Origin: Isoetes taiwanensis
Lineage: Eukaryota > Streptophyta > Lycopodiopsida > Isoetales > Isoetaceae
Assembly (NCBI GenBank): GCA_021234155.1
Contig: JAJEKV010000813.1
Coordinates: 1 to 64,000 of the forward strand
Direction of reading: 5' to 3'
DNA length: 64,000 bases
The position numbers and the translations under genes were made by a program. Shown here one piece after another: positions 28,141-52,376 of this stretch. Under the pieces are notes generated by a model. That model was given only the letters and a program-made list of their open reading frames with translations, had not been told where the DNA came from and made no database searches. Each line of letters begins with the position of its first letter. Positions within the stretch are counted from its first letter, which is position 1.

Positions 28141-28145
28141 AATTT

Positions 28146-29696
28146 TGTGACGTTCCAAAGATTAACGGTCCGGCCCCGTGATTATCGCATCGCCCTAAAC
28201 CACGCATTCCGCCACCCGGCCGACGGTGCGCCCGGCGTAGTAGCGGGCGGGTAGCCCCTAGGGGGGGGCAAGGTTGCAGCGGGTAGCCCCTAGGGGGCAA
28301 CTTGCAAGGTATGTGCATTTATTAATGTGCACATTTACCAATGTGCACATTTATCTAGGGGCACATTTTCCCATGTGGACACTTTATGCCACCTAGTCAT
28401 TAAAGGCAAGTGGGCCACACCCAATTATCCCACATGCTTAAAGGGATAATTGGAAACCCTAGCCCTAAACCCTTGTCTATTTAGGTAGGAGAAACCCTAA
28501 CTTGCCATTTTCGTCCATAGGGTTTTAGAGCTCTGTTTTGCTTGCTCCAAGAGTCAAAACCGCCTCCCAGACTCTGTCTTAGCGATTTGACTCATTAGTT
28601 TTCCTTCCTAGCTTCATCTTCTAGCAGTTCAACAGGATGGTCGAGTTCAAAGCAGGAGGAGCGAGCCAAGGATCAGGTATTTAGTCAATTTAATAGCCTA
28701 AACCGTTAGGTTTAGCCTATTAAATTGCCCATAGCAGCCAATTAGATTCCCAGATACCAGACTCTAACTAAAAAACCTAACTCTACGATATAGATTAGAT
28801 CTAGTTCTTTAGTTCTTCTGTGATGTATATGGATGATGTATCTCTGTGGAACTCCTTGTATTGGGAAGGGGGGTAGAGACCCTAAAACTTAGTAGTTGAT
28901 GTTCCTAGTTAGCCTCTCTAGCACACTGTAGATTCGGCCTGTGTACAAGAACCACACCTGATTGTGGGTGAAGGGGCCAGACTGGCTCATAAGGAGGTTC
29001 GTGTTCTGACCCTTGAGCGATCCCTCTGGTGTGTAAGGCCTAGGGCAAGGCATGGGCTCGACACCCGTGGAGTGATGCGTCACTCTCCATTGGGTTCAAG
29101 TCGAATAAGGGCAGTGGCCCTCTAGTCACCTTGGGTCAAGCACGATCACGGAGGGAGTGATCCCTACCGCCCCACCGAATGGGGAGATGCAACCCAGAAT
29201 AGCCCTTTGGCTATGCATCCGGCGGGCTAAGATCAGTCCCAACACTTTTTCAGCCTACTACGCAAAGTGTGCGGGAGGAGGGGCGGATGGAGTGGACAAC
29301 CCTAAGCCATGTTCTCATGCCAGCCAAATCCATTGCCATGAATTCTGTCCGCAATGAATTCTGGAGACCCAAGCCGTCAGTCATCCCTTCGAGTCTGAGC
29401 CTTGGGTAGGATTTCCCATGTGATGTGCTGATCATTGTCTATGCAGATATGTGATGAGCCATCCTTCAAGATGGCTATGTGATGTTGATGTTATATACTG
29501 ACATGTATGTTTACGCTTCCGCAGCTAGGTAGGCCCTGAGGGAGACAGGGTAAAATGACCCCTTCATTCTTCCCACTGGAACTCATCAAGGTTGCAGTGA
29601 CATATGGAGGGCCCTGTATCAGTATGGAGCTGGTATGGGGGATGAACTCCTGTTTGTATACGGTGAGTGCACCGTATATGAGTAGGGGACATCACA
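28146..29696 (+). repeat. 5' LTR of chromovirus
   Basis: Starts TGTGACGTTC and ends GACATCACA. It pairs with 50,700-52,371. It holds a short internal repeat of GCGGGTAGCCCCTAGGGG (about 28,248 and 28,278) and two copies of AATGTGCACATTTA near 28,325-28,350. Confidence 0.9.
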
Positions 29697-29697
29697 G

Positions 29698-29709
29698 TGG
29701 TATCAGAGC
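29698..29709 (+). other. Primer-binding site (tRNA-iMet type)
   Basis: TGGTATCAGAGC lies one base after the LTR end and is complementary to initiator-methionine tRNA. Confidence 0.9.
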
Positions 29710-29901
29710 AATGTTCTTGGAGACCAAGAGCAAAGCACTGACCATGATCCCAGTAGTACTAACTTGATAGGATCCTCAAACCTCAAAAAGTGGGAAATTT
29801 TTTTCTCATTTTTGTAGTATATGCTAAGGTAGTAACAGTTAAGAGAATTGGAACTTAAAAAGATTAAAAATAGAGCAGCCGAATCCTTCTAGAGTAAGAA
29901 G

Positions 29902-29967
29902 GTCTCACACGTCGCGCCAGGACTAAAAACAAAACTCCAGTTTTTGACCTGGTGCAACGTGTGAGAC
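29902..29967. repeat. Leader hairpin, copy 1
   Basis: A 66 nt inverted repeat. The left arm GTCTCACACGTCGCGCCAGG pairs with the right arm CCTGGTGCAACGTGTGAGAC. An inner AAAAAC/GTTTTT stem encloses the short loop AAAACTCCA. It is the first of four dispersed copies between PBS and gag. Confidence 0.95.
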
Positions 29968-30092
29968 ATTGGGCCAAGAACACCTTAAAACTTGATGAAT
30001 TTCAGAAAAGTAACATGCTAGATTGAGTTCTAAGATAAGATTTAGCTAGAATGGTATGTTACAATCACATAAATTAGTCAAAAATGTACAAT

Positions 30093-30159
30093 GTCTCACA
30101 CGTCGTGCCAGGACTAAAAACAAAACTCTAGTTTTTGACCTGGGCGCAACGTGTGAGAC
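30093..30159. repeat. Leader hairpin, copy 2
   Basis: A 67 nt inverted repeat with arms GTCTCACACGTCGTGCCAGG and CCTGGGCGCAACGTGTGAGA(C). It lies about 100 bp upstream of the first TATA box. Confidence 0.95.
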
Positions 30160-30259
30160 CAGTACTTAGAAAACTCTGAAATAAGTATATGTTTTAAGTC
30201 AATAGGTATTCGGCACATTAAATAGAGCAACTTGAATTTTGACCTAAAATTGCCCAAGC

Positions 30260-30268
30260 TATAAATAG
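30260..30268 (+). promoter_or_regulatory. TATA box of leader module 1
   Basis: TATAAATAG lies about 110 bp before the ATG at 30,369. A motif AGGCGATCTTTC follows at 30,323-30,334. The same arrangement recurs at 32,295, which supports a real, duplicated internal promoter. Confidence 0.6.
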
Positions 30269-30368: not shown

Positions 30369-31673
30369 ATGGTCGAACCAAGAAGACCGCTCTAGTTCCC
30401 CGACCGATGGATCAGCCCGGCGCTTAAGATCCGAACGACATGTGCGGATGCTTCGGGGAGCGCCTCTTTAACGAGAATGGCCAGTCTTCATCGGAGCGAG
30501 GGAACGGATGAGCACCAAAGGGAAGGATCCAACAGGAGGAGCAGCGGGACGAGGAGATAGACTAGCAGGTCGATCAAGACAAGGTGCACTCAGATGCGGT
30601 ACAAAGGTGCTCGAGGGGATAAAGAAGGAAGCGAGAGCGGAGGACCAAGGCTCATGAAGAGCATAGGCACCAGGCTCGAGCCAACCATCGAGGAGCAACT
30701 TCGAAGCTTGGATTTGGAGAGAAGGAGGCGGAGGAGCAAGAAGAACAGAGAGAGTCGACACTCGAGCCGGTGAGGAAGAAGAGCTCATGCATGGATCAAA
30801 AAGCTAACGAAGCAAAAGAACGCCGCCAGAAAGGAAGAGGGCAAAAGAAGAAGAGGAAGCGGAGGAGCAGGAGGCCAAAGAGGCCGAGGAATTGAGATCA
30901 AGAAAGGGAAGTTCGTGGAGGCGGGCCAAAGAAAACTTAAGAAGGTTCCATTAACAAAGACCCCAACCCCAAGGTCGCTATCATCAACGGCGGTGGTGAC
31001 CCAGCCCCCCTCCCTCCTCGACGACTCAAGATGAAGACTTCAACCCCAACACCGCCCGGTGGAAGCTCTTCTAAACCCCCAGCGCAAGCGCAAAGACAGG
31101 ACCTAGAGCAGCCGGATCAAGTGCGTAAGCCCCCGCCATATCCGAATTTGGGACAGAAGAAATGCCTACGACACCGCCGAGAATCTTATGTAACGACCCT
31201 ATCAAGATTTCATTGAGAGAAAGATGAGGGAGCACAATGCGTATATGAAGAAATGGGAGGATTACAACTCCTATTACCCCAGTAAGCGTGGTTAGAACCA
31301 TCGAAGGTGGACATCCGTTTGAAGAAGCTTTTGACTCTAAGGTCAGCCACGCGAAGCCCAAGCCTCCCAAGAAGCCAAAGCAAAGAAGAGAGCCAAAGAG
31401 AAGGAGAACGAGAGAAGAGCACTTCAAGAAATCAGGCACTTCCAGCGAAGCTTCGGCCTCTTAATCCCCCGTGCCCCCTTCGCCCGTTTAGTTAGAGAAG
31501 TCATGCAGGAGTTCAACACCGGCATCGCGGGTAACAGATTTAAATGTTGCCGGGCATTACAGAAGCAAATTTGAGCAAAAGATAGTGCAAAGCATTTTGA
31601 AGATTCCCAAACCGCGATTGTGCATGCCAAACGAGTAACCTTAATGAAGAAGGATATGCACTTGGCAAGATAA
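30369..31673 (+). pseudogene. Leader ORF A: charged and Pro-rich region plus histone H3-like domain
   Basis: An auxiliary gene inside the retroelement leader. Starting at the first ATG after the TATA box, the region reads in shifting frames as a highly charged stretch (about 30,640-30,930, KEAEEQEEQRES-like), a Pro-rich linker (about 31,030-31,140), and a patch RKMREHNAYMKKWEDYNSYY (about 31,217-31,280). A basic Lys/Pro/Arg-rich segment (about 31,351-31,415) then leads into the H3-like core described separately. Frameshifts are frequent before 31,353 and none is seen in the core. AT-rich, 3'UTR-like sequence follows to 31,830. The host origin of the histone part is known family biology, while its capture by the element is inferred from position inside the LTRs. 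Confidence 0.6.
31410..31670 (+). pseudogene. Histone H3-fold domain (CENH3-like features)
   Basis: H3 pairs with H4 in the nucleosome core. An 87-codon stretch in one frame aligns along the whole H3 core. The alphaN helix reads ALQEIRHFQRS (canonical ALREIRKYQKS). Then come LLIPRAPFARLVREV, QEFNT, loop 1, and RFKCCRALQK at the start of alpha2. Next is FEDSQTAIVHAKRVTLMKKD with MHLAR, matching H3 [20 protein letters not shown]. RHFQ, LLIPxAPF, TLMKKD and a loop 1 about three residues longer than in H3 are closer to plant CENH3 than to canonical H3. One in-frame TGA (31,572) lies in alpha2 and a TAA (31,671) follows LAR. Both could come from C-to-T change. Preceding basic residues resemble a histone tail. 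The family call is firm and the CENH3 subtype tentative. Confidence 0.85.
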
Positions 31674-31834
31674 TTAAGGGAGAGCCCTATTAAATTTTGT
31701 AAATGATGAAAATTTTGTTAATACAAAGAATTTTTGAGTAGATTATATGTGTAATCTTACTTAATTAAGCTGAGTTAGCAAGTAACAGCTTTTGTTTTAG
31801 TTAAATAATCCATTTCTAGAGCAAATAGTGAGAT
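31674..31834. other. AT-rich spacer after ORF A
   Basis: Low-GC sequence between the H3-like domain and hairpin 3, with no reading frame. It resembles a 3' untranslated or intergenic spacer between two transcription units. Confidence 0.4.
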
Positions 31835-31901
31835 GTCTCCCACGTCGCGCCAGGACCAAAAACAAAACTCCAGTTTTTGACCTGGGCGCAACGTGTGAGA
31901 C
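31835..31901. repeat. Leader hairpin, copy 3
   Basis: A 67 nt inverted repeat with arms GTCTCCCACGTCGCGCCAGG and CCTGGGCGCAACGTGTGAGA(C), and the same inner stem and loop as copies 1 and 2. Confidence 0.95.
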
Positions 31902-32033
31902 CATATCCAAATTAGACCAAAACACCTCCAAATCGACCAAGTAAGGGGTCAATTCTGCCTACTCGATGAGCCTAGCATGTTTAGACCCTTAGATCACCCA
32001 AATTGGACAAGTTTTGACCAAAATAGGGCAGAT

Positions 32034-32100
32034 GTCTCACACGTCGCGCCAGGAGCAAAAACAAGACTCCAGGTTTTGATCTGGGCGCAACGTGTGAGAC
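32034..32100. repeat. Leader hairpin, copy 4
   Basis: A 67 nt inverted repeat with arms GTCTCACACGTCGCGCCAGG and TCTGGGCGCAACGTGTGAGA(C). The loop is slightly changed (AAGACTCCAGG). It lies about 195 bp upstream of the second TATA box. Confidence 0.95.
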
Positions 32101-32294
32101 CTCTTAGCATTTTCTCCACCATGCCATATCCAATTGACTTCTAGTTTCTTGCAATAGGTTCATTAGATAGTCTCGGTCATGCTCAAACCCTCAAATTAAC
32201 CTTCCAGTTCCCATTTGAGCCTCAACATAGGCTAGAATTGCCCAACCTCAAGAGTTTTTCAAGTCACCCAAAAAATTAGGGTTTTCTCCTCCTC

Positions 32295-32415: not shown

Positions 32416-32945
32416 ATGGCAACTGCTGACTTCAGGCGATGGTACATCGCCAGTGCCCATGCTGCCGAGGCTGATGTCAACAACATTTTTCGAAGTTTTT
32501 CCGGAAAGAAATAGATGTCCAAGCCACTCTGCACGCAACCCCGCCATATAGACAAGTCCTGACCGAGTTCCAAGCTAGGGTAGGACTGTCTTTAGTGCAG
32601 CTCCCTTGTCTGCAGTTGCCGTCCCCAGACAAACCCTTCAAGCAGCCTTGGGTGATGTTCCAAACATTGCCAAATATCTGACCAACAAGGCCCAGAGGTT
32701 GCTAGACTACATGGTCACGACGGTCAGCGGGACCAAAGTATTTTTCCCACACCACTGCCTTAGCAATTTTCCTCTCCCACCGTGCCGAAAACCCCATAGG
32801 GGAAACTTATATCCCTCCCATGGATGTGGACCCCTTAGCCTCCTCAGCAGCAGACCAGCTCCTTTTGCAGTACCAACAAGAGCAAGAAGGAAGGGCAGAA
32901 GACGAAGAATCGGAAGACGAGGACTACGTCGAGCTTGATCGCTGA
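32416..32945 (+). pseudogene. Leader ORF B: unknown protein with acidic C-terminus
   Basis: I do not recognise this protein. It starts at the first good ATG after the second TATA box (MATADFRRWYIASAH) and can be followed for about 175 codons across roughly three frame changes. The middle (AALGDVPNIAKYLTNKAQRL, LLDYMV) is predicted to be helical. The last ~25 residues are strongly acidic (EGRAEDEESEDEDYVELDR) and end at a TGA at 32,943. Acidic tails of this kind occur in histone chaperones and other chromatin proteins, but no domain supports that here. It could be a unique structural protein of the element. The neighbouring H3-like gene makes a chromatin role worth testing. Confidence 0.45.
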
Positions 32946-33960
32946 AGAGCGGCGAATTAAGCGGTGAGGGAGTTCGCGGGGAATTAACGAGCGGGCAGCA
33001 AACCCTCAGGATCGCTCCACCACTTGGGCTAGGTATCACAAGCCTAGCCCCCATCATCATCGACGGCGAGGAGTACCTACTCCTCAGCGACATCCAGAAC
33101 CTCCCCGAATGCAGGGAAAGGGAATATCGACTCGACGAGTTGCTGCAGCAACAAGATCTGGATGATTTTATCATCCGAGGAGTTTCGACTTTTCCACTTC
33201 AAGTAAGAGAAGTCGACACCTACATGTGAGAGTCTACTGACATCCAAGCCTCACGGCAACATCGCATGCAACAATGGAAACTCGAAGGGGCCGATCAAGA
33301 AGAGGAGTTCTATGCCATCCAGGAACAGATGGGAATCCGTGGCAAGACCACAAACATTTTGATGCCGAGCTCTTCGACACCAGCCCCCACAGAGAGAAGA
33401 GGCGAGATCGACCTCAGGCGAGCTTCATCGAGAGTTAGGGATTACAGAGAGTTCACCGAGGTGGAGGTCGCAATATAATATGCCGAAGACACGAAATGGG
33501 TGGCCGAGGAGGTTTAAGAATCAATAACGATGCACAACGGCATGTGTCGGCTGCGATACTATCTCCCCGCTGGCGGGCCGGCGGGAGAATAGCGGTACTA
33601 CACCACAAATTCAGCCCTGTGGGCTTAAGAAGGAGTATTCATGCTCATCGCGCTCTCAGGCTTTGGCCGGCATGCTCGGCTAGCTGCCAACACCGACTAT
33701 GCCATCTTAGTCAAGAGAGCGATGGCACTCGACATCTTCGACTTCGCCATACCTTACCGACGGCAGGGAAGATGGCAAAGGACCGCTTTTTTACACCTCC
33801 ACCGCAGGTAGAGGAATTGGTGGCGGCCTGCGGTGGGGACATCAACAAACGCCCCTCGGGGAACTTGGGACCTTTCGGTAGGAACGGCCCAAGTTAAGAA
33901 GTTCCTTGAGGATAACCCATCCTACCGGCGATTTCAAGAATAGTCAGACTCTTGATCCCG
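32946..33960 (+). pseudogene. Leader ORF C: unknown, frame-broken
   Basis: I do not recognise it. One readable stretch (about 33,022-33,228) contains IIDGEEYLLLSDIQNLPE and a Gln/Asp-rich segment (LLQQQDLDDFI). Another (33,266-33,478) is charged, with DQEEEFYAIQEQMG and a Pro/Ser/Thr patch. A third (about 33,630-33,800) reads NTDYAILVKRAMALDIFDFA and then YRRQGR, which loosely resembles the end of histone H4. The end (about 33,800-33,900) has ELVAACGGDINKRPSGNLGP. These may be one protein or several. It lies between ORF B and gag and has no TATA box of its own. Confidence 0.35.
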
Positions 33961-34099: not shown

Positions 34100-35400
34100 A
34101 TGACCTCAGCTAGAGGCCCGGGCTCAGGGGAACGACAATGCCGAGACCATAGAGAAGAACAGACTCATCGCACGGACCCCCCGTGAAAAGAGCTTGTATG
34201 AGGCATTTGGCCCCATGACCCCTGAGGAGGAAATGTCACAGATGAGGATGGACCTTGAGCATATAAAGGCTTTCCTGGCCACACAAGCAGGAGTTGGGTC
34301 GGAAGGCAACGCCCTATTGCCACAAGCATCAGCTCGGAAAGCAGGAAAGGACATGAAGAGGAGCAAGAGAAGGAGGTCCCCAAAGCGGAATCCTCCGGGC
34401 TCAAGCTCGGACTCTGACTGATTCAGGAAGAGGCCGAACAAGTCTGAAGAACCGAAGGGGCGCATGACACAAGGAGACGAGGACCTCGGACTACCAGAAG
34501 AAGGTAGACTCTGCGTTGGGAAACGTTTGGAAGGCCAGGAAGCTCGAGCAATTCTCAGGCGAGAACAGGGTCGCATGGAGGCGAGAGGCCTTTCGATGAA
34601 ATGAGTGAGTATGGCAACACCTATGGTACGAAGGACAAGGACAAAGGCAGGGTGGCAACGGCCAACCTGAAGGGAGCACCACGCATTTGGTGGAAGGGGT
34701 ATGCCAAGGCCCACGGCTTAAGCAGGAATGTTGCAGGTTCAGAAAGTTTGCTAAAGCTTTCAAGCGCCATTACGTCCCAAGGGAACACAAGTCCAATATG
34801 ATGCGGCCGGTTCTGGTTGTGTTGCGAGAAGGCAACAAATCACCCGTATATACAGAGGAATTCATGCGGCTAAGGCTTTATGTGCCAAAGTTGAGCGAAA
34901 AGCATGCAGTGGAGAGCTATATTGAAGGATTGAATGAGGAGATACGCAAGCTTGTAAGGGCAATAAACCCCAAGACAGTATCAGAAGCAGAGTCCAAGAC
35001 AATAAGCTTGCAAGGAGCGGGCCTCCGAACAGTGGCCGAGAGGCAGCAGATACTGGGGATAAAGGCAAGGCAACGGGGAGTTATAGCCGAGAGCAGCCAC
35101 CCAGTCCGGCTAGAGCCCCATATAAAGCAACCATGGGCAGAAGAGAAGAAGCAGGTGTCCTTCAAGGACAAGCAGGAGGGGTCAAATTACTCCAAAGCAG
35201 TGCGGTCCTTCTTGCAAGCCATGCCCAAAGAAAAGAGACAGGAGTGCATAGAGAAGCAGCTTTGCTTCAGGTGCTTCCAGCCAGGCCACGGTGACAATGG
35301 AACCCGCCTTCGCCTCATGGAGCGCAGCTTCGAAGCTGAGTTGGGGATGGGACACTGTCCCCGACGGCATGAGGCAGCCCGCCGACTATATTCAGGATGA
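34100..35400 (+). pseudogene. Chromovirus gag
   Basis: Gag forms the particle shell. From the ATG at 34,100 the region reads EEMSQMRMDLEHIKAFLATQ, then a basic segment (KRSKRRRSPKRNP). The core gag domain follows at about 34,660-34,960 with LKGAPRIWWKGYAKAHG, FKRHYVPREHKSNMM, YTEEFMRLRLYVPKL and VESYIEGLNEEIRKLV, the pattern of the plant retrotransposon gag family. A zinc knuckle starts at about 35,263 (CFRCFQPGH), with its last cysteine lost in a frame change. The longest open part is 34,687-35,400. Protease follows in an overlapping frame. Confidence 0.82.
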
Positions 35401-35830
35401 GTGTCATATTTTTGCCGCCATAGATACAAAAAAGCAAGAGAATCAAGATAAGGTAATTTCCACGGTAGGGAAGGCCAAGGCCAAGTCTTTCATAGTCCTG
35501 ATAGACTCGGGAAGTAGCCATAACTTTGCATCCCCCAGAATGGTTGAAATGTTGAAGTTGAAACCGTTGAAGTCGAAGCCGAGGCCCGTCGTCTTAGCAA
35601 GTGGAGCAGTAAGGCGCATCGGTAGGCAAGAGAATTAATTTTGACATTGACTTGCCGTGAATTAACATCCGGATGGGGCAGAGGTAATGGGCATCGGCAA
35701 GTATGACTTGATAATAGGAATGGAGTATCTTGGACTGGCAGGGGCCATCATTGATTGTGGAAAGCGCAAGGTGACCCTCACAACGCTCGACGGCAAGATC
35801 ATTGAGATCACAGTAAAAGAAGTTGTTCCC
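35401..35830 (+). pseudogene. Chromovirus aspartic protease
   Basis: Retropepsin-like protease that processes the polyprotein. The active site VLIDSGSSHNFASPRMVEML at about 35,498-35,557 has the D-S/T-G triad intact. Downstream, YDLIIGMEYLGLAGAIIDCG (about 35,704-35,763) matches the usual flap-to-end LGxxWL pattern. Frame changes occur near 35,630. Confidence 0.85.
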
Positions 35831-36009
35831 ATCATGCAAAGGCATGTCTAGTAAACGACTGCTCAAGTGCATCAAGAGCGAAAGGGTAGCATACATCTTC
35901 AAGCTTGAGATCAAGAACCGAGGCGGGGAAGAAGGCAAGGAAGATAAGGTGCTCAGCAAGTTGCCCAAGCAAATAGCTAAGTTGATCACGGAGTTCCACG
36001 ATCTTCCCG

Positions 36010-36720
36010 GATGAGATCGAGTACCTCCCTCCTTACAGGGGAGTCGAGTGTGAGATAGCACTCGAACCCGGAACGAAACCGACAAGCAAGGCTCCATACG
36101 TAATGACGACGCAAGAGTCGACAGTGAGCTAAAGAAGCAATTGCAGGAGTTGCTCGACCTAGGCTTCATTAGACCTAGCGTTTCACCATTTGGGGCACCC
36201 ATTCTCTTTGTCAAGAAGAAGGATGGCAGCTTGAGGATGCATCGACTATAGGGCGTAGTTGAATAAGCACACCATCAAGAACAAGTATGCGCCCCCGATC
36301 GGATGACTTGATGGACCAGCCCAAGGGGCAAGGGTCTTCCAAAATTGACTTGAGGTCGCTATCATCAGATCCGGATAAAGGAAGAAGATATCCATAAAAC
36401 CGCCTTAATGCGCAGACGGGCACTATGAGTTCACAAGAATGCCCTTCGCTTATCAAACGCCCAAAGAACGCTCATGAAGCTCATGAAGCGACATCTTCAA
36501 GGAGTTCTTGGACACCTTTGTGATAGTATTCTTTGATGATATTTTGGTGTATAGCATCCCTTTGAAGAACACATACAACACCTAAGAAGAGTGCTTGAGA
36601 AGTTAAGGAGGCACCGGGGCTTATGCGCCAAGTTGTCGGCGCCACCGCCGCTAAATCCGGAGAAGGTGGAATACCTATCGACGGATCCCGCCAAGATTTA
36701 AGCAGTTGATTCAAAGGGTC
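36010..36720 (+). pseudogene. Chromovirus reverse transcriptase
   Basis: RT copies element RNA. Motifs in order: [20 protein letters not shown] (about 36,014-36,072), [20 protein letters not shown] then [16 protein letters not shown] (about 36,130-36,240), a damaged IDYR-LNKHTIKNKYAPP (about 36,241-36,295), SKIDLRS near 36,338, and the catalytic box FVIVFFDDILVYS near 36,514-36,552. The palm motifs are in the normal order but spread across several frames, with small deletions at CG-rich words. Confidence 0.85.
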
Positions 36721-36769
36721 GCAAGATCAAGAATATCCATGAGGTCGGTTTTCTCGCCTAAAGGTGGTA

Positions 36770-37285
36770 CTACGTGAAGTTTGTGAAGAAATTTGCAAAG
36801 ATAGCGGCCCCGCTTAATGTATTTGACGAGGGCGAAAAGGTGAAAGATTGGGCAGATCATTGGCACAAGAAAGCCAAGCTGGGTTTGAATTGTTGAAGGA
36901 AGCTTTGACAACCGCCCCGCCTTAACCCCGCCGCACTCCTGAGAAAGACAAGTTGGTGAGACGCAAGTAAGATAGCCACAGTCAAAGTGCTCATGCGGGA
37001 AGAGCGAGTAGTAGCGTATGATTCGGGGAAGATGAACGACGCCAAAACGCGCTACCCGCGATGCGATCAAGAATTGCTTGCGTTGTCGTGGCATTAAAAA
37101 TTTGGAGGCACTAACCTCTTGGGAAGGAAGTTCCATTAGATACGAGATCATCGAGCCTCCAAAGATATATTTCACGCAACCACACCTTTTAACCCTGGGC
37201 AAAATAAGGTGGATGGAGTTCCTCGAGGAGTATAGCTTTGAGATAGTCTACAAGCCGGGGAAGCTAACGTGGTAGCGATGCACTT
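36770..37285 (+). pseudogene. Chromovirus RNase H region
   Basis: Follows RT. YYVKFVKKFAKIAAPLN near 36,769-36,820 is the RT thumb/connection. VVAYDSGKMNDAKTRYPRCD with QELLAL near 37,010-37,084 corresponds to the gypsy RNase H segment VAYxSxKLNxAExNYPxxDxELLA. RWMEFLEEYSFEIVYKPGK near 37,212-37,266 is the conserved end before the integrase. Frameshifts and stops are present. Confidence 0.8.
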
Positions 37286-37389
37286 TCAAGGCATCCCCGA
37301 CAACTAGAGTGCATTGCAATGCAATTTCGACGCCTCCAAATGACTTCGAAAGAAGATTGAAGAAACCTTTGCCACAGATATGGACTTCA

Positions 37390-37603
37390 AGGAAGTATGG
37401 GCAAGCTTATGCAGGAGGCAAGAACAGATAAGGAGAGAGAAACTTTCAAAAATTTTAAGAAGGAAGGTAATCTCTTGTACCATAAGAACAAGTTGTGCGT
37501 GCCGGAATCATCAAGGTGTAAGGAAGTTGATTCTCCACGACACCCACAACAGTCCAATAGCTGGCCATGTAGGATTTATGAAGACATATTTCAAAGTGCG
37601 CAG
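37390..37603 (+). pseudogene. Chromovirus integrase, N-terminal half (split by insertion)
   Basis: Contains FKKEGNLLYHKNKLCVPES and then LILHDTHNSPIAGHVGFMKT (about 37,527-37,588), the His-His half of the zinc-binding domain. The coding match stops abruptly at 37,603, where the nested element begins, and resumes at about 48,640 with YYW and the Cys half. The integrase gene is therefore broken by the insertion. Confidence 0.85.
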
Positions 37604-40098
37604 TGCTGCCATGCTATGGCAGCATGTAAGAGCCAAGCATATATTAGTACTAATCCTATCAGTTTGGTTCAATTTGCAAGATATTAGGAGAATGCTTCAC
37701 TAGCATACACTCAAGTTTGAAGAGCAAAGGAAGGACAATTGACTCAAGTCACTCAAGAGATGCAAAAGGTCAAACAAGCATAGGAAGTGTAGAGAAGAAG
37801 AGAAAGAAGACCCCTTGAAGAGCATTCCATGGTATGTAATCATTTATGAGCTTGGCATCTTTGGCATTTTTTTTATTTCCATCCTCATCCACTCCACCAT
37901 CCCAAATAGCATTGAACCTTGACTCCTTCCTCATACACCTCCCAAAGTCAAACTTGACCTTGAAAGTTCTTTCTAGTCAAAATACACCTTCATAAAACAC
38001 CCACTTGCTTCATCATCCACTAGTTCAAGAGAGACTTGACTTAGTCATAACTTTGCTTATGAAGTCAACATTCCATGCAACTTGAGCAAAATGTAGAGAG
38101 GCTTGCAAAAATCCCTAAGGGAAATGCTAAAAATTCAAATATGCCTCAAAGATGCTTCAAAGATGCTCCACAAAATTTTTGGCTTCCTAATGAGCACTAG
38201 ATGTGCCAAGTCCCCTACACCTTACTACACACATCACACCCATCACCATTTCATCCTTTTTCATCTCAAACTCTCATTCAAATCAAAATTCATTTCAAAA
38301 TATCATTGTTGCCACATCACTTTTGACACCCTCATCATTCACACACATCATCTCCACATCATTCTAAAAAATTTTGACTAGAGAGAATTTTCAAATTCAA
38401 GTGGGTTGACACGTCATCATTCCCATTGGCCATGTCATACTACCTAGCCATGCCATGTTTTTCAAATGCCACTTCATCCACTCCCCAAATTTTTTCCAAA
38501 CTCCAAAGAGCTCTATGGTGAAAAAAGACCCTGAATATTATAGGGCACAAAAAAGAGATTTCCCTAGAAAAAAAAAAGAATTTTGAGAAAAGGCCTTATT
38601 TTAGGCATGGTATATGTGTTCTAGGGAATCATGCCATAGGGTGTAAGGGGTGCAAAAATTTTCCTATCTACCCCCTTAGCCTAATTTCTCTTCCAAGCCA
38701 ATTCCCCCCGTGGGAGCATCCGGGCGCAGGGATTAGGTGGAGGTACCCGAATCCCGTGGACCTTGCCTTAATAATCGAAGAAATCAATTTTTGGGCCTTA
38801 TATACTTTTATCCGCTAAATTGAATTGGGCCTGTGGGATATTTCTCTTCGAACCCGCCGTAAACCTAAAACTGGAAAATGCCAAGATCCGCTTGAGCGAC
38901 CTAACAAACCATTAATTCAGCACCTAAACTCGCAGAATCATTATAATTAATGCCATGAATGCTTAGTGCGGGCTAAAAAGATGTAAGAATTGAAAGAAAT
39001 GATGAAGATTTCAACGAACAAGACATTCTACAAAAGGGGATTTTTCGCCTGTAAGAGTTTTGAGGGCTTGAAGGCAAAGAAGATTTTTTGGCTTTGAAGA
39101 AGGACCGGCTTGACAACCTTGAGCTTGATCCTGACCTCCTATGTTTACCTTTGATCCGGATTATTGACTTAATTCTCCGGATTTTTTATGTGCACCTATT
39201 TGATCCTGTGCCCAAGACCCCGAGCTTGGGATGTTATATTGTATCTTCTGAGTGACTTATTCAATTGAAAATCCGACCTTTGCAGCAGTTTGTTTGAGTT
39301 GCTTTGTGATCTTTTCAAAAAGCAAAAAATTATCATAGCTTTATTGTCATAGCGTGAGTATCTAGTGCCGTGCACATTGCTGTTAGCATGTTTTGTCTAC
39401 CCGTATCACAAACCCTTAGAAAGTGCAAAAGCCAAATCCTCGCATTGCAATGGAAAGTTGGCATTGTTAGAACATGAGGTATTGCACAACAGGTGTGGAG
39501 CATGGGAGAGCCACCGTTTTGAACTTCAATCCTGTCCAAACAAAGTATGTGGAAGTAGACAAAGATTAGATACACGCGTGCGGTTGACCCCTTACAAAAC
39601 ATTATCTTTCAAGAACATTTTCTTCTTACAGTTTAGGCTAAGAATTATCAAAAAGAAAAAAATTGATCCTTTCTGGTCGAAAAGAATAGTTGGCCCCCGT
39701 GTGCGCACAAATCGAGAAAGATAGAGTTGATAGTCCCAAAAATTCATCACCAATATCGAAGTTCCAAATATCACGGCTCTCAGGGGATATTGACCAAAAA
39801 TTGACTCGGGGTGTTGATTTGAATCTAAGCCCACCTAGCCTACTCGACCTCATTGAGCTTTTTGTACCGTTAGTGACAAGTGTTGAGAACATCAAGGAGT
39901 GATATCCACACCCATAGCCCCATAGATCACATTGCAAGAGATTTTGTGAGGCAGGACTTTTTTTTTTTTCAGGGGAAACACACCCTAGTGATCTTTTGTG
40001 ATTCTTTCCTCGGAACTTTTTACTTTCGAGTGGTTGCCTTAAGCAACCCGGAGGTTCTAAAACCGAGGTTGAAGGTTTTGCCGGGAATACCTTCAACA
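37604..40098 (+). repeat. 5' LTR of nested element
   Basis: A 2,495 bp direct repeat of 46,135-48,633, starting TGCTGCCATGCTATGG and ending CCTTCAACA. Frames inside it (for example at 39,365-39,724) are not conserved between the two copies and are not genes. Confidence 0.9.
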
Positions 40099-40101
40099 TT
40101 T

Positions 40102-40121
40102 TGGAGGTTCTACCGGAGATC
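40102..40121 (+). other. Putative primer-binding site of nested element
   Basis: TGGAGGTTCTACCGGAGATC begins three bases after the LTR. Starting with TGG is required of a tRNA 3' CCA complement. It resembles the tRNA-Asp-type primer site of Athila/Tat elements (TGGCGCCGTTGCCGGGGA) with several differences, so the tRNA is uncertain. Confidence 0.5.
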
Positions 40122-40129
40122 ATCTTTCG

Positions 40130-41180
40130 AACCGGACTCATGGCACCAAGAAGAGTTAATGAGACATCTGAGCCCTTACCGAGACCGCGAGGATAATCAG
40201 GAAGCACGCTACACCCTTTGTCACCATACAAGCAAGCTGCGGGCATGCCTTATCAATACCGAGTTAAATGTGCCTACTAAGGTCCCCTGTTTTTGATCCG
40301 AAAGCATGAATGCCAACAATTTCCTCAAGACCTTTGAAGAATACTATCAAGAATATGGTCACAAAAAAGGTCGTAAGTTTTACGAGTTTAAGAAATGTTT
40401 CAAGAATGATGAGGTAAGGGCTTGGTTAGAATATGTTATAGGTTTAGGCACCAATTCTTGGGAAGAACTGGTAAAAAAAGTTTCTAGCAAAGGTTTGGAA
40501 GAGTCTTGGACCCTCAAGATTTAATATTTGAGTTGCAAACTTTTCGCGATCAAACATGGTGAAAGTGTGCAGCGTGGTATGTCGAAAAGATTCAATCACT
40601 ATCCGGGTCAAATGCCAAATCAATCATGTTCCTAACCATACATTGCATCTAGTGGCTTCTTTTATCGTGGGATTGAGCAAAGACCAAGAATACACGTAAA
40701 GATTTTGAAGATTCAAAAGCGAGGGATTTGATACAATACACAAGGCTTTCACCAAAGCTTCGAAATTGGGATATGATATCATACTTTACCGGATGAAATG
40801 CACTCACCAAGTGATCCTTTTTTTCATTATGAGCAGGAGTGTATGGGATCAGCAGACTGCACTGCCTATGCTATCCAAAAAGAAAAGAAAAAGGTTAAGA
40901 TGGAAGATGATGAGGCTCCCCGGCAGGATGTAGGAGAGATCACCAAGGTATATCGAGGCATTGGTTGAGGTAACTAAACAACCGCAAGAGTTGAAGAACT
41001 CAAAATTTGAAAAGAAAACTTACCCTCCATGTGTACCGCTTTAGAGATACTCATTCTTCCGATTATTCTTTGGTATAGGCCATGCACTAAAAGTGTGGAA
41101 AAAGAGGTCATTTTGGTAAAGAATGCCCGTGTGTGAATTTTGTAAGGGCTGTAGGGACATTACGAGGATAGATCTAAATG
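40130..41180 (+). pseudogene. Nested element gag
   Basis: Gag of a Tat/Athila-like element. The most readable part, 40,306-40,521, has NNFLKTFEEYYQEYGHKKGR, FYEFKKCFKNDEVRAWLEYV and SWEELVKKV, matching the capsid-type gag pattern. A CCHC zinc knuckle is visible near 41,091-41,131 (CTK, C, GKRGHFGKEC) across one shift, and a second Cys/His cluster (CKGC, HYED, KC) follows at about 41,140-41,180. The start codon is uncertain: ATGs at 40,140 and 40,306 are candidates. Confidence 0.7.
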
Positions 41181-41619
41181 TCAAAAGAATATTTTGCCGG
41201 GACAAGAAAAATCTAAAATTGGTGAACCAAGTGCATCTATAAGGTTTGTCTTGGTGAAGTTGAAGAGCAAGAGGAGATTATGGGCTGTCCACACGGAAGG
41301 ATGAATAATGCCAAAGAGAAAGAACCAAAGAATGAAGAAGTTGAGATTTTGAAACATAAAGATCTTTGAGCAAGCGTTGTCGCGTGCCTCCTCCTCCTGC
41401 TCAAAAAATTTGTCAAGAAGGAAAAGGCGTGAGGATTTTGAATATTTATTGAAGAATTCTAAAATCTGCGTGTAGATTTGTCGACCACGCTCAAGATAGC
41501 CCTTCTTCTGACGAAGAAAGGTGCTCAATCTTACTAAGGAAGATGAGTTTGCCCCGACAAATCACATTGATGAGCACATGCTCACCCGGGAAGATAATGA
41601 TCCGGAGCTTTCACCGTGT

Positions 41620-41960
41620 TGCTAAAATGGAAGGGAAAATATTAACCAAAGTTACGCTAGATGGAGGATCACCCTTGAACGCGTGATGCCACACCATGTC
41701 ATGAGGCTGTGGTGGTCTAGAAGTAGACAAGAAGGCTCCAATGATCTTGAAATCTTTTTCTAATTCTAAAATCAATCCGATTGGGAATAGTTAGCAATGT
41801 GCCTATTGATGTTGAAGGAATAATGGTTGCGGCTAACTTTGTGGTGGTTGCTTTTGAAGGAATAGGGACAAATCAGATATTTATGACTTACTTTTGGGCG
41901 AAGGTGGCTTTCTATAGTAGATGCTAGGCTGTGTGGTCAAAAAGGAGAATGTACCATCTC
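41620..41960 (+). pseudogene. Nested element protease
   Basis: VTLDGGSPLNV followed by MPHHVM (about 41,653-41,705) is the active site: D-G-G-S in place of D-S/T-G, as often in Tat/Athila elements. LLGRRWLSIVDARLC at about 41,893-41,935 matches the LGRxWL segment near the protease C-terminus. Frames change in between. Confidence 0.65.
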
Positions 41961-42119
41961 AAATGGCAAGAAAAAGGTAACATTGTATAATAAGATAGGA
42001 GAGTTTGAAAGCATGAATTTCATTGAAGAAGAAATGTTGATATCACATCCATGTGGAGAATTTGAACCGGATCTGATGAGTTGGAGTCTAGCATAAAAAT
42101 CTCAAAGGAGTTGGCTTCA

Positions 42120-42500
42120 ACCAGGTTGAGCAATTTTGCTTATTTATGGTTTGATGGTGGTGTTTCCAAAAGGCTTAATGTGGCATCTTCTCACGCTATT
42201 CTCAAGGGCGCCTCAAAGCAGTTCTTTGGCTAAAGTAGGAAGGATTCATCCTAATGTCACTTCTAATATGGCAGAATATAAGGCATTGATTGCAGGTCTT
42301 CAAGAGGCAAAAATCTAAACATCAGGAATGTGATCATCTTTGGAGACTCTCACTCGTCTGCTTGAGGCAAATATCAGGGGAGAATATCAGGCCAAGAATG
42401 AGGACATGTTGCAGCTCAAAAGTCAAGCCATCTTTGAACCCGGAAGGATTTTGATACACAGGAACTTCGCGCCATGTTCAAGGGGAGCAGAATGGTGAAG
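42120..42500 (+). pseudogene. Extra (archaeal-like) RNase H domain upstream of RT
   Basis: LWFDGGVSK near 42,143-42,170 supplies the first Asp of an RNase H. NMAEYKALIAGLQEAK near 42,267-42,315 has the Glu motif AEYxALIxGLxxA. IRNVIIFGDS near 42,321-42,350 holds the next Asp. GEYQAKNEDMLQL follows and a degraded 'RGAEW' segment stands where the last Asp is expected. This is the archaeal-like/plant type (aRNH). In Tat elements known to me the extra aRNH lies between RNase H and integrase; here it lies between protease and RT. It is frame-broken. Confidence 0.65.
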
Positions 42501-42739
42501 CGGAACTCGTTGTCAGAAGGGTGTGCTAATCTGGAACATTTGGTTTGAGGGAGCAATTCAAGAGGAGGAACTTGAGAGAAGAGATCCGCAGCAGCTATAC
42601 CCCATCCGGTAATCAATGCAAAAGTGAAGACAAGCGGGTAAGGGAAGTCAAGGTCAATAAGAAGGGTCTAGATAGGGTGTTATATGTTGGAGATTTGTCG
42701 AGGAGAAGAGGATAATGCTTTGGTTACCAAATTTTTTTG

Positions 42740-43520
42740 ATGATTGGAAGGATGTCTTTGCTTGGGATTATGATGAGCTGGTGGGAATTGACAAAAACAT
42801 TTGTGAATTTGAAATTAAAATAAAGGGAGGTATGAAACCGTCATACAAAAGCTAAGAAGAATCAATGCTTCTCTATTAGGTCTAATCAAGGAAGAATTAT
42901 ACAAAATGAAAGATGCGAGGGTGTGATTCTTGAAATTGTGAACTCACGAGTGGCTATCTTGCATTGTTCTGTTGAAAAAAAGAAAAACAAGGCCATTAGG
43001 ATCTGCATAGACTATAGAGATTTAAACAAAAGCTACCGGTCAAAGATTGTTACCCTTTTGCCATTTCTGGAAGAGGTGTTGCATGTCAGCTTGTGTAAAG
43101 AAATTTACTCATTCTTAGATGGCTTTTCGGGTTTTAATCGGATAAGCATCAAGGAAGGTGATCAGCCAAAAACTTCATTTATCACACCTTGGGGAACATT
43201 TGCCATGAAAAGAATGCCATTTTGATTGATGAATGCTTCTGGCAACATTTCAAAGAGCCATGGATGCAATTTTAAAAGAAATGCCACTAACATTTTTCGT
43301 GTGTATTTTGGATGATCTTTGTTTGGGAACTTCTCGAAAGACATTTTGATATGCTAACCATGTTGTTTGACTTGTGTAGAAAGGGGGGAGTGAGTTTGAA
43401 CCCCAAAAGTGTGTGTTTTATCATCAAAGGGGAATTGCTTGGGCATGTAGTATCTACTGGCCGAGGAATTCAAATATCCGGACAAAGAAGATTGAAGCCC
43501 TAAGGAGATTGACACCTCCA
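42740..43520 (+). pseudogene. Nested element reverse transcriptase
   Basis: Starts with DWKDVFAWDYDELVGIDKNI (42,740s-42,800), the pre-RT segment. Then IRICIDYRDLNKSY (42,998-43,040), YSFLDGFSGFNRISIKEGDQ (43,109-43,165), PKTSFITPWGTFAMKRMPF (43,167-43,224) and the catalytic box YLDDL-like (CILDDLCLGTSRKTF, about 43,300-43,342). GGVSLNPKSVCFIIKGELLG (about 43,385-43,445) is the next conserved segment. One main frame change follows MPFGL. Confidence 0.85.
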
Positions 43521-44062
43521 AAACCCTCAGCAGGGTTAAGAGCTTCATAGGGATGACCAGCTTCTTGAGAATGTATGTCCCTCATTTTTCCCACACCATA
43601 AGCCCAATCTCCGGCCTCACAAAGGTTGGGAAGTTCTCAAAAAGTGAAAAGCAAACACATCCTAGTAGATTGGGATGAGCAATGCCAAAATTCTTTTGAC
43701 AAAATCATTGATGCCATTTGCAAATCTATCCCGCTAAAACCTCCGATCTAGAGAAGCCCTTCAAAGCTTACATCGGTGTGACAAAAGAAAGAAATTGGTG
43801 TGGTAATTTTACAAGGGGATCATGTGATTACTTTTTGCAAGCAAAATGTGGTCCGATCTTTGAGATTAGATATCCCGGGTTGGAGAAGAGTGCAGCAGCT
43901 GACCGATTTTTTGATAGAAAGGCAAGGACATCTTCTGCAAAAACAATCGGGTGCAAGTGCTCATGAGGCAAAATCCTTTCTCCTCCTATTTGCAAAAAAG
44001 CAGCCAAAGGCCCAAAATGCGAGGTGGGCTTGTAAGATCAAGCTTATGATATTACTGTAAAG
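43521..44062 (+). pseudogene. Nested element RNase H region
   Basis: Begins with the RT connection (SFLRMYVPHFSHTISPISGL, about 43,558-43,620). FKAYIGVTKE at about 43,758-43,790 and VVILQGDHVITFCKQN near 43,799-43,845 correspond to the gypsy RNase H region LxLDASxxAIGAVLxQ, although the first Asp position reads Tyr-Ile-Gly. The domain is degraded and its catalytic set is incomplete. Confidence 0.6.
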
Positions 44063-45489
44063 GTGGTAAAGTTGATCGAGAATCCCAGCTCCTACCTTCC
44101 ACTTGTGTTGTTTGAGCATGAAGATCAAGATGGTTTGTGTGTTGATGACAATCTAACAAACTTGATCTCTGTTGATCACGAGAAAAACATTGATTGGCAA
44201 TTTGACATCGAAACTATTTGGAAAGCAATGAGTTACCTAAGAACTTGAGTGTCGAGTCAAGAAAGGAGATTTAGGGACAAATGCAAAGAAGTTCAGTCTA
44301 ATTGAGGGGATCCTATGCAAAGTTGACAAGGCGGGGAGTCTTGCTGAGATGTGTGGATAAGGAAGAGGCTAGAATGATAATTGTGCGTGTCATGAGGGAG
44401 TTTGTGGAGGACACTTTTGCGGCCAGTATTACAACTTGCAAAAAGATTTTAAGGTCGAGGATACTTTTGGCCCCTACTCTCTTTAAGGATTGTTATGAAG
44501 CTATAAAATGCTGCCACAAATGCCGGATTTTTGGCAAAAGAACCTTGCAACCAACTGCCACGGCGCCATAATTTCCCCTGGACCTTTTCAAATGTGGGGA
44601 CTGGATTTTATAGGCCCCATAGACCCACCTTCCTCAGACTCAACACGGTTTATATTAGTTGCCGATTACTTTTACCAAATGGGAGGCAATTCCTTTTGAA
44701 AGCCAATGCCCAAGCTATCGCAAAGGTTTCTACATGAAAATATACATTGCGATTTGGTATCCCTTTCAAAATTGTTTTTACGATAGAGGCAGCCAATTCA
44801 TCAAATACAATTGCATTACTTCTAGCCACCTTGAAAGTCAAAACACACCAAGAGTTCATCCTATTACCCTCAGGGAAATGGCCAGGCAGAGTCAACCAAT
44901 AAGACTCTCAAGTCAATCCTGAAGAAGACCATCAGTGTTTCAAGAAAGGATTGGCATTTGAAACTTCATGATGCACTTTGGGCATACAGAACTACCATCA
45001 AAGTGGCTACAAAGCACACCCCTTTCAGTTTGGTGTATGGGATAGAATGGTATTGCCTATAGAATTAGAGCTTCCATCACTGGGTTGGCCTATCAGATAA
45101 ATTTGGAAATGGATAATGCTCTAAAAGACAGATTTGTGAGATTGATGCAGCTTGAGGAGCATAGATATGAGGCTGAGAATGCAATAATAAGGAAAAAGGC
45201 CAAGGATATTGCAGCCTTCAAAGCAGCACATAAATTACAGGGAGTCTTGAAAGAAGGAGAGTTAGTGTTAAAAGTGGAACAAAGCAAAGGGAAGATGTGG
45301 CAACAAAATTCGAAAATCTTTGGGAGGGACCATTTTGAAGTAATAGGGACGGTGGCAAGGATTCATATTGGTGAAGGATATTATGCCGATGGCGTGAGAA
45401 TTGATGAACCCTATCAACATTGTGCACCTAAAAAGGTATTGGCAACAACATGTTGCCCCTTGCTTTCCTCAACTGAAATCTCGTGGTAA
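44063..45489 (+). pseudogene. Nested element integrase
   Basis: Zinc-binding part: GVLLRCVDKEEARMIIVRVM then ILLAPTLFKDCYEAIKCC and HKCRIFGKR (44,335-44,545). Catalytic core: GPFQMWGLDFIGPIDPPSSD (44,580-44,640, first Asp), a degraded FCYDRGSQFI (about 44,772-44,803, second Asp), and a Glu region near 44,870-44,900. [17 protein letters not shown] and HTPFSLVYG (about 44,953-45,045) close the core. 45,085-45,489 is open and holds QLEEHRYEAENAIIRKKAKD and the C-terminal beta domain. Several frameshifts. Confidence 0.85.
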
Positions 45490-46090
45490 GATGTAGCTAG
45501 GTATAGTTAATACATATGGTTAAAACTAGATCAGTTAGGCTGTCTTAGTAAATTTAGTTACGCTTTAGGGTTATTATTTGTGTGTTAATGAATTTATAAG
45601 TGTTGCTATGCGATTGTGATCAACTGAAGGAGTGAATTGATACTAATGATCATAGTTCCATGCAGGTGCATCCGAGCATGTCGTCACACATCTCTTCCAT
45701 TGCACTACATTGATCTCCATCATCCGGAGTTGCCGACATTGCCTCCACACCGGCGACTCACTCATACTAACAAGCTTTATCTTCACATGCGGTGCATTCC
45801 CATGTTTATATCCATCGTCATCCGATCAAGAGTTGACCTCATTGCATCGAAACTCCTCCTACATTGCCAATAAATTTCCCAAGCTTGTCGTCATACCACC
45901 ATCCTGCGGCTTCTCATAACTAAAGAGATTTATTTTCCATGCAGGTTCATCCGAAAGTAGCATCATGCACGCGTTCATAATATCAAATCTATCACCTTCC
46001 AATCCATATGCAGGTCATTGAGTTGCCAACCATATTCTCATATTGGCAACTTGGCCGGAGAACATGTCAAGAGTCATCAAGCGACTAGTC
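45490..46090. other. 3' untranslated region of nested element
   Basis: No conserved frame. Short repeats of CATGCAGGT and CATCCGA-like words are present (about 45,660, 45,940, 46,010). It ends at the polypurine tract. Confidence 0.5.
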
Positions 46091-46106
46091 AAAGGGGGCG
46101 GGAAGA
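46091..46106 (+). other. Polypurine tract of nested element
   Basis: AAAGGGGGCGGGAAGA is a strong polypurine run, but it lies about 29 bp before the LTR start inferred from the left junction. Either a gap exists or the LTR boundary needs adjustment. Confidence 0.55.
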
Positions 46107-46134
46107 CCAGCCTTCTCTTTTTGTTTGGCATAAT

Positions 46135-48633: not shown

Positions 48634-49560
48634 CGCGGCAGCTACTATTGGCAGGAATGAAGAAACAGTAGCTTCGCTACATCAAAGAGTCGGCTATGTC
48701 GGCCGAAAGCAGCCTTTAATTCGTGGGCATTGGAACCACTAGTGGTGCGAACGCTAAGTGGGAGGTCATCAGCATGGACTTCATAACGGGCTCCCAAGGA
48801 CCGAGAAGAGGGAAAGATGCTTTGATGGTAGTGGTCGCACAAGTTGTCGAAGATGGCACACTTTGTGCCTTGCGGGACCACCCATTTATGGATACAAATA
48901 AGCTCTTCACCAAAGAAATCTTCGGGCTCCATGGCATGCCAAGGGAGATCATCTCGGCGGGGACCCCAAGTTCATGAGTGCCTTTTGGCGGGACCTCTTT
49001 GCGACAATTCAGGGACGAAGCTATCCATGAGCAGCGGCCTATCATCCTCAGACGGATGGGCAAACGGAGCAGACCAACAGATTTTGAGGATATGCTACGA
49101 AACTATGTCTGGAACAAGCAAGGTATGTGGGAAGAATTTATTCACTTGGTGGAGTTTTCGCGACAATAGCACCAAGGGAATCATCCCAAATGTAGCCGAT
49201 TTATGATCAACTACGGCTACCAATGCCTAACTCCAAACACTTGGCACAACCCCGTGTCAAAAGTAGAGGTTTCACAGCAAATGTTGGCCGACATGCAGCA
49301 GCTGGTGGAAGAAGTTCGAGGATATCTTCTTGCAGCAAGGAGTCGACAAAAGAGCATCGTCGACAAGCATCGAACGATCGAGGGAGTTCCAAGTTGGCGC
49401 GCGGCGTATGGCTCAAGATCAAAGTGAAGGGGTGAAGCTCGCGATCGGAAATTGTAAGAAGCTTGCTCCAAGGTGGGCTGGACCCCGGAGAATAGTCAAG
49501 AGGATAGGTAATCAATCCTCTGCATTGGATCTACCAAAGACACCTAAAGATTCATAAAGT
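48634..49560 (+). pseudogene. Chromovirus integrase, C-terminal half
   Basis: Resumes with YYW (48,643) and the Cys half of the zinc domain, then the catalytic core. WEVISMDFITG (about 48,760-48,792) holds the first Asp. A degraded DRDPKFMS-like stretch (about 48,955-48,980) holds the second Asp. Then SSDGWANGADQQ (from HPQTDGQTERxNQ; about 49,042-49,080) and EDMLRNYV (about 49,087-49,110), where the Glu region is damaged. QMLADMQQLVEEVRGYLLAA near 49,276-49,335 and KLAPRWAGPRRIVKRIG near 49,461-49,510 are the C-terminal segments before the chromodomain. Confidence 0.85.
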
Positions 49561-49870
49561 CTTCCACGTGAGTTTATTGAAGAAGCATACTCCAAATCCA
49601 GACGAAGTCTTGGACACCCCAACGTTGTTGGAAATGACAAAGGAGCAGCTGGAAATAGTTCCAAAATTGATTCTTGATAAAGCCTTCAAGAAAACAAGGA
49701 GATCAGAGTTTCTCCAATATTTGGTCAAGTGGAAACACTTGCCGGTGGAAGACGCGACATGGGTACTTAAGAAAGATCTATTAAAGCAGTGCCCACAGTT
49801 TATGGAGCAATGGGACGGCAAGGTCATCTCCGAAGAAATCGGCTCAGGCATGTCGATTTGTGTAGATTAA
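49561..49870 (+). pseudogene. Integrase C-terminal chromodomain
   Basis: The chromodomain binds modified histone tails and directs integration in chromoviruses. After VSLLKKHTPNPDEV, the frame 49,568-49,870 reads EIVPKLILDKAF, then FLQYLVKWKHLPVEDATWV (about 49,709-49,765), matching the beta-strand core (YLVKWKGxPxExATW) and the following helix (LKQCPQFMEQW). The frame is open and ends at the TAA at about 49,868. This is the best preserved domain of the element and gives the chromovirus assignment. Confidence 0.9.
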
Positions 49871-52371: not shown

Positions 52372-52376
52372 AACTT

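Follow-up and report, generated by a model that had tools for sequence, protein, structure and literature searches.

Histone H3 is already known as cargo of a transposable element in a fungus. A hAT DNA transposon of Pyrenophora tritici-repentis carries an H3-like gene, H3L, with an altered tail; in the available part of the paper its authors place it in neither H3 nor CenH3, report 26 copies in the reference genome, which are near-identical, and suggest drift (PMC3538342). Plant LTR retrotransposons contain additional ORFs beyond gag-pol, and host genes have been transduced in sense orientation, as described in a paper whose main text does not contain the word 'histone' (PMC7264820). In orchids, Ty3/gypsy elements carry an ORF for an AlkB m6A demethylase, which the authors interpret as a response to host control; in section 12 of that paper, no histone domain is named for the 121 angiosperm genomes surveyed (PMC9289625). 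The Selaginella chromoviruses SM-Tcn1, Galahad, Diluvium and Cranky have been described as well (PMC3350952).

Here, we describe Ty3/gypsy elements of Isoetes taiwanensis in which an ORF upstream of gag, ORF1, ends in a histone H3 fold. As in Pyrenophora, a transposable element bears an H3-like gene with an altered tail. Unlike H3L, the Isoetes genes belong to plant retroelements, form two diverged families and are under purifying selection, and the family analyzed in most detail keeps the H3 tip and loses the ARKS motif. Instead of a hAT transposase and terminal inverted repeats, its representative in the analyzed DNA has LTRs, gag and pol pieces. With the orchid elements it shares the character of a large plant gypsy element with a fixed captured host-like domain, although the captured domain differs (PMC9289625). 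With the Selaginella chromoviruses it shares the Ty3/gypsy organization, the chromodomain and, for one described element, a tRNA-Met primer binding site (PBS), but no histone ORF is described for them in the part of that paper available (PMC3350952). It also resembles the plant LTR elements with additional ORFs in general (PMC7264820). No retroelement that carries a selected histone of its own was found in the open-access full-text literature, searched by titles and the starts of abstracts, supplements excluded, and the word 'histone' is absent from the main texts of the Isoetes genome papers. A TE-borne H3 has a precedent in the fungal hAT element, and domain capture has precedents among plant gypsy elements.

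The stretch of DNA that was analyzed (the window) comprises the first 64,000 bases of a contig of 85,948 bases. It contains an element, the founding member of what we call the window family, whose features are listed in Table 1. The first-pass annotation had called it a Ty3/gypsy chromovirus with matching LTRs and a target-site duplication. Indeed, LTRs, PBS and polypurine tract are present, gag is followed by the order protease-RT-RNase H-integrase (RT by motif, H2C2 below the cut-off with E 1.8e-4), and a chromodomain closes the integrase. Pfam recognized gag, protease, RNase H and chromodomain in broken pieces; the RT piece had no Pfam match. The LTRs match (45 substitutions in 1,319 aligned sites, K2P 0.035, 28354-29687 versus 50963-52363), and the flanks agree only in part. 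The PBS is presumably of the tRNA-Met type. The nested element within pol has LTRs of 2.5 kb that are 93% identical. As the first-pass annotation stated, the H3 fold lies between PBS and gag. The leader of 4.4 kb is built of two modules. In both, a pair of hairpins and a TATA-like word, TATAAATAG (at 30,260 and 32,296), are followed by an ORF; module 1 leads to ORF1, which ends in H3, and module 2 to ORF2. An Rfam search of the leader, hairpins included, gave nothing that reached the gathering threshold. The hairpin pairs and TATAAATAG in front of both ORFs are perhaps internal promoter or translation signals. Elsewhere in the window, 15576-16443 and 20782-21655 form a direct repeat (90% identical), perhaps the LTR pair of another element, and a 144-bp tandem duplication (99% identical) is located at 25992-26278.

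Table 1. Features of the H3-bearing element in the window
Feature	Position	Strand	Basis or remark
Putative target-site duplication, left AATTT	28141..28145	+	right AACTT 52372-52376; 4 of 5 bases match
5' LTR (TGTGAC...CACA)	28146..29696	+	start from comparison with copy L065/L066
Primer binding site TGGTATCAGAGC	29698..29709	+	sequence
Hairpin 1	29898..29969	+	-39.5 kcal/mol, z -8.6
Hairpin 2	30089..30160	+	z -8.1
ORF1, decayed in the window: ATG start, long charged linker, C-terminal H3 fold	30369..31670	+	homology to open copies
Histone H3 fold of ORF1	31419..31670	+	PDB, Pfam, other copies
Hairpin 3	31831..31902	+	z -6.2
Hairpin 4	32030..32101	+	z -6.3
ORF2, decayed in the window, second auxiliary protein	32416..33930 (right end approximate)	+	homology; no Pfam match
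gag (Ty3_capsid, Retrotrans_gag), broken	34104..35397	+	Pfam
Protease pieces (RVP_2)	35252..35848	+	Pfam, near curated cut-off
RT-like piece, RNase H (RT_RNaseH), integrase H2C2; broken	36054..37604	+	RT by motif only
Nested LTR element, foreign to the H3 system	37607..48633	+	LTRs 37607-40098 / 46138-48633
Chromodomain, integrase end	49508..49867	+	PF00385, E 4.7e-10
Polypurine tract AAGGTGGGGAGAA	50687..50699	+	sequence
3' LTR	50700..52371	+	LTR comparison

The H3 fold of the window copy occupies 84 codons in one frame on the forward strand. Its right end at 31,670 agrees with the earlier call of 87 codons from 31,410, and its left end was moved to 31,419. The single internal stop noted before is an in-frame TGA at 31,572-31,574. 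A phmmer search against all PDB chains returned histone H3 as top match (E 4.6e-16), so that the fold was correctly named, but helix alpha-2 is scrambled in this copy and the match does not extend intact over the whole core as had been claimed. Pfam Histone (PF00125) matched the whole stretch, with X at the stop, at E 1.7e-14, and the two stop-free halves at 1.7e-10 (above the curated cut-off) and 1.6e-5 (slightly below). A frame-tolerant profile scored 138.5 bits, while 60 mononucleotide shuffles under the same setting reached 18.2 at most. The copy retains 25 of 29 columns that are at least 90% conserved and 5 of 20 columns that are less than 50% conserved in database homologues, which were chosen by likeness to this very query. 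A tree with the window copy as sole element H3 gave no placement (end branch 2.15). The window copy of the element is dead and its ORF1 decayed.

The I. taiwanensis assembly (1,658,258,908 bases, 1,110 contigs) was searched; candidates in these searches are not equivalent to confirmed copies. The assembly has 66 matches to the chlorophyll a/b-binding family, and one of the best of these scores about 350 bits against LHCII chains of land plants and 313 bits against those of green algae, with a single multi-domain entry (9vfj_2) ranking higher still. A DNA query of 281 bp from the H3 region gave 1,027 candidates; all 40 that were scored carried H3 at 79-100% identity, comprising the window itself and 39 further places. 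A protein query from one copy matched in 150 of 150 scored cases at 86-100% (best 150 of 8,845 candidates), and by our count 134 of these had an H3 without stop. H3-bearing places number well over a hundred, and likely thousands. Hairpin 2 and the TATA-like word were collinear upstream of H3 in 28 of 30 fetched loci (window included; not L002 and L025), hairpins 3 and 4 lay downstream in 28 of 30 (not L014 and L022), and the ORF2 start was collinear in 25 of 30; hairpin 1 lies before the start of some fetched stretches and so could not be scored throughout. The first-pass annotation had expected numerous insertions with LTR, hairpins and H3 frame in common, and had named an H3 confined to one copy, or a histone part bounded by its own target-site duplication, as findings that would speak against it. 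The counts bear out the prediction and contradict the single-copy case, and the shared placement of H3 makes a private duplication moot.

Linkage to the element was also seen from the LTR and gag side. Listed H3 matches lay 2.35-2.46 kb downstream of 5 of 40 LTR matches, on the same strand, at 3.4 kb from the LTR match C941:13,473,957, and 2.7-3.1 kb upstream of 13 of 40 gag matches. Slices of 800 bp were fetched from the expected place for 15 other LTR matches and 12 further gag matches. They contained H3 in 4 of 15 (two degraded) and 6 of 12 cases (one degraded), and H3 was absent from the other 11 and 6 slices; control slices of the window contained H3 in 0 of 15. Slices lacking H3 are expected from 3' or solo LTRs, nested insertions and deletions, and H3-less copies of the element may exist. 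In copy L022 the H3 region passes straight into gag, and in L014 into LTR-like sequence. The copy at C941:13,462,069 has two LTR stretches (1,070 sites, K2P 0.016). The second is preceded by a PPT-like tract and cut off by a further LTR start, and no target-site duplication could be assigned. Two local arrangements were noticed in addition. Three H3 matches on the reverse strand (G000:C1032:11104025, 11105703 and 11107385) are spaced by 1.68 kb, a possible tandem array of the ORF1 module, and part of ORF1 (window 30486-31021) is seemingly tandem-duplicated in L002.

Two open ORF1 copies, fetched for their long frames, can be read through from their MARTK start, over 451 and 444 aa. The protein starts with an H3 N-terminus (MARTKQ/ETAR), continues with a long, charged linker of ∼350 aa that replaces the remaining tail, and ends in an H3 fold extending from alphaN to alpha3. 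In copy L008 this fold reads like ALREIRHFQRSFGFLIPRAPFARLVREVMQDFNTGMRVTDEMLLALQEAAEQKIVQHFEDSTACTVHAKRVTLMRKDMQLASIIKGE. Pfam Histone matched one ORF1 per family at E 2.8e-25 and 1.1e-43. In the copies other than the window, the element H3 is 49-57% identical to replicative H3. The window family has S-I at the positions that we take to be H3 R128-R129. By reading, residues H113, R116, D123 and R83 persist, which presumably make H3-H3 and DNA contacts.

MARTK was found at the expected place in 26 of 32 loci, with an exact ARTKQTAR in 18 of the 26, tips from decayed copies included. A canonical H3 tail with ARKS at residues 7-10 and 25-28 was not observed. Residues 9-10 were KS in none of the 26 tips; they read VP in 14, KP in 5, IP and KA in 2 each, and VL, VR and AL in 1 each. 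K9 was thus retained, with residue 10 alone changed, in 7 of 26 tips, and in these K9 may still be methylated. ARKS was absent from all 25 open stretches of the window family and all 15 stretches of the sibling family described below, whereas it occurs twice per protein in 15 of 15 host H3. For K9-S10 the 26 tips are more informative, since many of the open stretches, the shortest of 89 aa, do not include the tip.

A second family emerged when the genome was searched with Pfam Histone (150 of 8,705 candidates scored). The top 15 matches (L031-L045) are replicative H3 genes, all with the tail MARTKQTARKSTG. Among the next 15 that were fetched (L046-L060), 14 contain the N-terminal domain of a second type of ORF1 and 12 have the corresponding ORF2 behind H3; we refer to these as the sibling family. 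In its fullest ORF1 frames, an N-terminal domain of ∼200 aa is connected by a Q-rich linker to a near-canonical H3. The N-terminal domain (MPRFKLTVDLKKLSVFQLF...) is seen fused to H3 in L047, L048, L052, L053 and L056; in L052, ORF1 had no Pfam match outside the histone part, and the domain had no PDB match. The free H3 tip is lost. In our alignment P stands at the place of K9 in 14 of 15 sibling loci and the K27 stretch is missing; 13 of the 15 have STGGK-like letters. The locus L061/L062 has the order ORF1(H3), ORF2, gag, protease. In tblastx blocks its gag is 33-51% and its protease 54.5% (E 4e-93) identical to the window element. The ORF2 proteins of both families, in the sibling located at L062:613-1488, are related (blastp 3e-6; hhalign E 1.9e-6, probability 90%); a Pfam search of ORF2 gave no match. 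No sibling LTR pair was found within the 17 kb fetched. L049 represents a more distant H3-bearing element (ORF2 45% and N-terminal domain 36% identical).

The phylogenetic analysis grouped the sibling H3 with host H3 and with plant and yeast H3 at 100/97. Narrower groups, sibling with host H3 (98/75) and sibling with the host gene L045 (96/79), were both below the program's mark. The window family formed one clade (100/99) on a long branch. A single origin of the two families, with an AU p of 0.204, is neither shown nor rejected. The nearest named protein-database matches of the decayed window copy were plant CENH3, which hinted at a captured CENH3 that steers insertions to centromeres. The other copies and the tree speak against this candidate. 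Fetched loci aligned ungapped to replicative H3 in 27 of 30 cases (all except the window, L020 and L023), without the extra loop-1 residue of plant CENH3. In the tree, plant CENH3 stood apart (91/91, below the program's mark; host CENH3 left out) and the sibling family fell with replicative H3. We consider a CENH3 origin very improbable; the source of the element H3 looks like a replicative H3.

The constraint on the H3 frame was quantified by pairwise dN/dS. In 28 of the 30 window-family loci, chosen by DNA similarity (the window copy L001 and L023 were dropped, their fold being shifted), the median was 0.087, and it was 0.083 for 300 pairs with dS >0.3; the copies are related, so that pair counts are not independent. 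Variants common to several copies comprised 64.5 synonymous versus 22.5 nonsynonymous changes, and singletons 35.5 versus 57.5. This matches the prediction of purifying selection on an active lineage and neutrality once a copy is inserted. Analyzed by part in 8 copies open over at least 290 aa, dN/dS was 0.083 for H3 and 0.197 for the linker, the latter value being inflated as the far N-terminal part of L018 is seemingly read in another frame. ORF2 is under weaker constraint (0.317, 13 copies of the window family). Within the tip, codons 2-9 had a pS of 0.687 and a pN of 0.052 (ratio 0.076), compared to a ratio of 0.684 for codons 10-20. The ARTKQTAR tip is as constrained as the fold. For the sibling H3 the median dN/dS was 0.055 (15 of 15 loci), which is biased low because these loci were chosen by their fit to the histone profile. 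Host H3 genes had a median of 0.009; hence, the element H3 is under less constraint than a housekeeping histone.

Thus, the Isoetes elements possess an extra ORF under purifying selection in many copies, as plant LTR elements with a fixed host-derived ORF do. The first-pass annotation had suggested that the H3 was captured, retained as an auxiliary protein and kept under purifying selection across copies, and the many copies, the two families and the low median dN/dS all agree with this. A passive passenger, derived from a processed H3 pseudogene that inserted into a single element and is carried along with it, would be in line with the gene fragments that plant LTR elements commonly capture (PMC7264820). 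It is contradicted by the copy number, the occurrence in two families, dN/dS values below 0.1 and the constraint on tip and fold, and hardly merits belief. In the copies examined, the H3 ORF is multi-copy, part of the element, constrained and devoid of ARKS.

We propose that a chromodomain Ty3/gypsy lineage captured a host replicative H3 gene, which would have become ORF1 between PBS and gag. The window family would have kept the ARTKQTAR tip and the H3 fold while a long charged linker replaced the remaining tail, with the hairpin pair and TATA-like word coming to precede each of ORF1 and ORF2; in the sibling family the H3 tail would have been made internal behind a new N-terminal domain. The ORF1 protein probably binds H4 as its partner and functions as an H3 variant in chromatin, because fold, tip, and the presumed H3-H3 and DNA contact residues persist. 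Plants silence retrotransposons through H3K9 methylation. If ORF1 were placed in nucleosomes, either at the target site or on the DNA of the element itself, H3K9/H3K27 methylation in its normal context would be impossible there, and the copy might escape or delay heterochromatic silencing. This step, suggested by the sequences, is tentative. The conserved tip argues against it in part, as silencing evasion alone does not need ARTKQTAR. The tips with a retained K9, the S-I of the window family in place of R128-R129, the constraint below that of host H3 genes and the possible H3-less copies also count against the overall explanation. For the whole explanation, a captured replicative H3 serving as a chromatin-acting ORF1 that resists heterochromatic marking, we see the balance as even. 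That a plant Ty3/gypsy lineage encodes a methylation-proof H3 variant and writes its own chromatin state against heterochromatin is a more doubtful, if possible, reading. If true, it would represent a counter-move to H3K9-based silencing at the nucleosome level. It would also offer, with K9-S10 and K27-S28 lost in two families, a natural experiment on the H3 parts required for silencing.

The constraint on the tip (pN/pS 0.076), equal to that on the fold, would also be compatible with a role in integration. Here the ARTKQTAR tip or the fold would tie the pre-integration complex to nucleosomes or H3 tail readers, and the chromodomain at the integrase end fits such a targeting function. However, by eye the window chromodomain lacks two of three cage aromatics. 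The same has been described for plant group II chromodomains, and no ligand of these was found (PMC3350952). In addition, the sibling family has lost the free tip. We regard tethering as unlikely. ORF1 could also act as a histone mimic that sequesters H4, chaperones or proteins reading the unmodified tail and thereby weakens host chromatin assembly or silencing in trans. Such interference would be in line with a tip that is exact in 18 of 26 cases though the fold drifted in identity, but not with the tipless sibling family; we judge it improbable. A similarly improbable role is packaging, in which ORF1 would bind nucleic acid in the particle or compact cDNA, the histone fold being used outside nucleosomes. 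The long charged linker and the position of ORF1 upstream of ORF2 and gag would suit this function, yet a zinc knuckle is weakly matched in the sibling gag itself (E 0.005, below the cut-off), and conservation of ARTKQTAR would be unexpected for a plain packaging protein. The chromatin-acting H3 variant remains our preferred explanation.

Relatives of the element were also looked for outside Isoetes. Viral contigs contained no relative of the H3 part, the RT piece or the H3 alignment, and none for the hairpin word. In the protein database a gag piece had no match, and the ORF1 read-through gave one weak match only, located over the H3 part (P0121, E 2.4e-4). Separately, four metagenomic H3 variants (P0049, P0061, P0062 and P0102; 168-169 aa, 6 to 21 members each) were observed that have a stretch like LLIPRAPFARLVREVMQD and a long loop 1.
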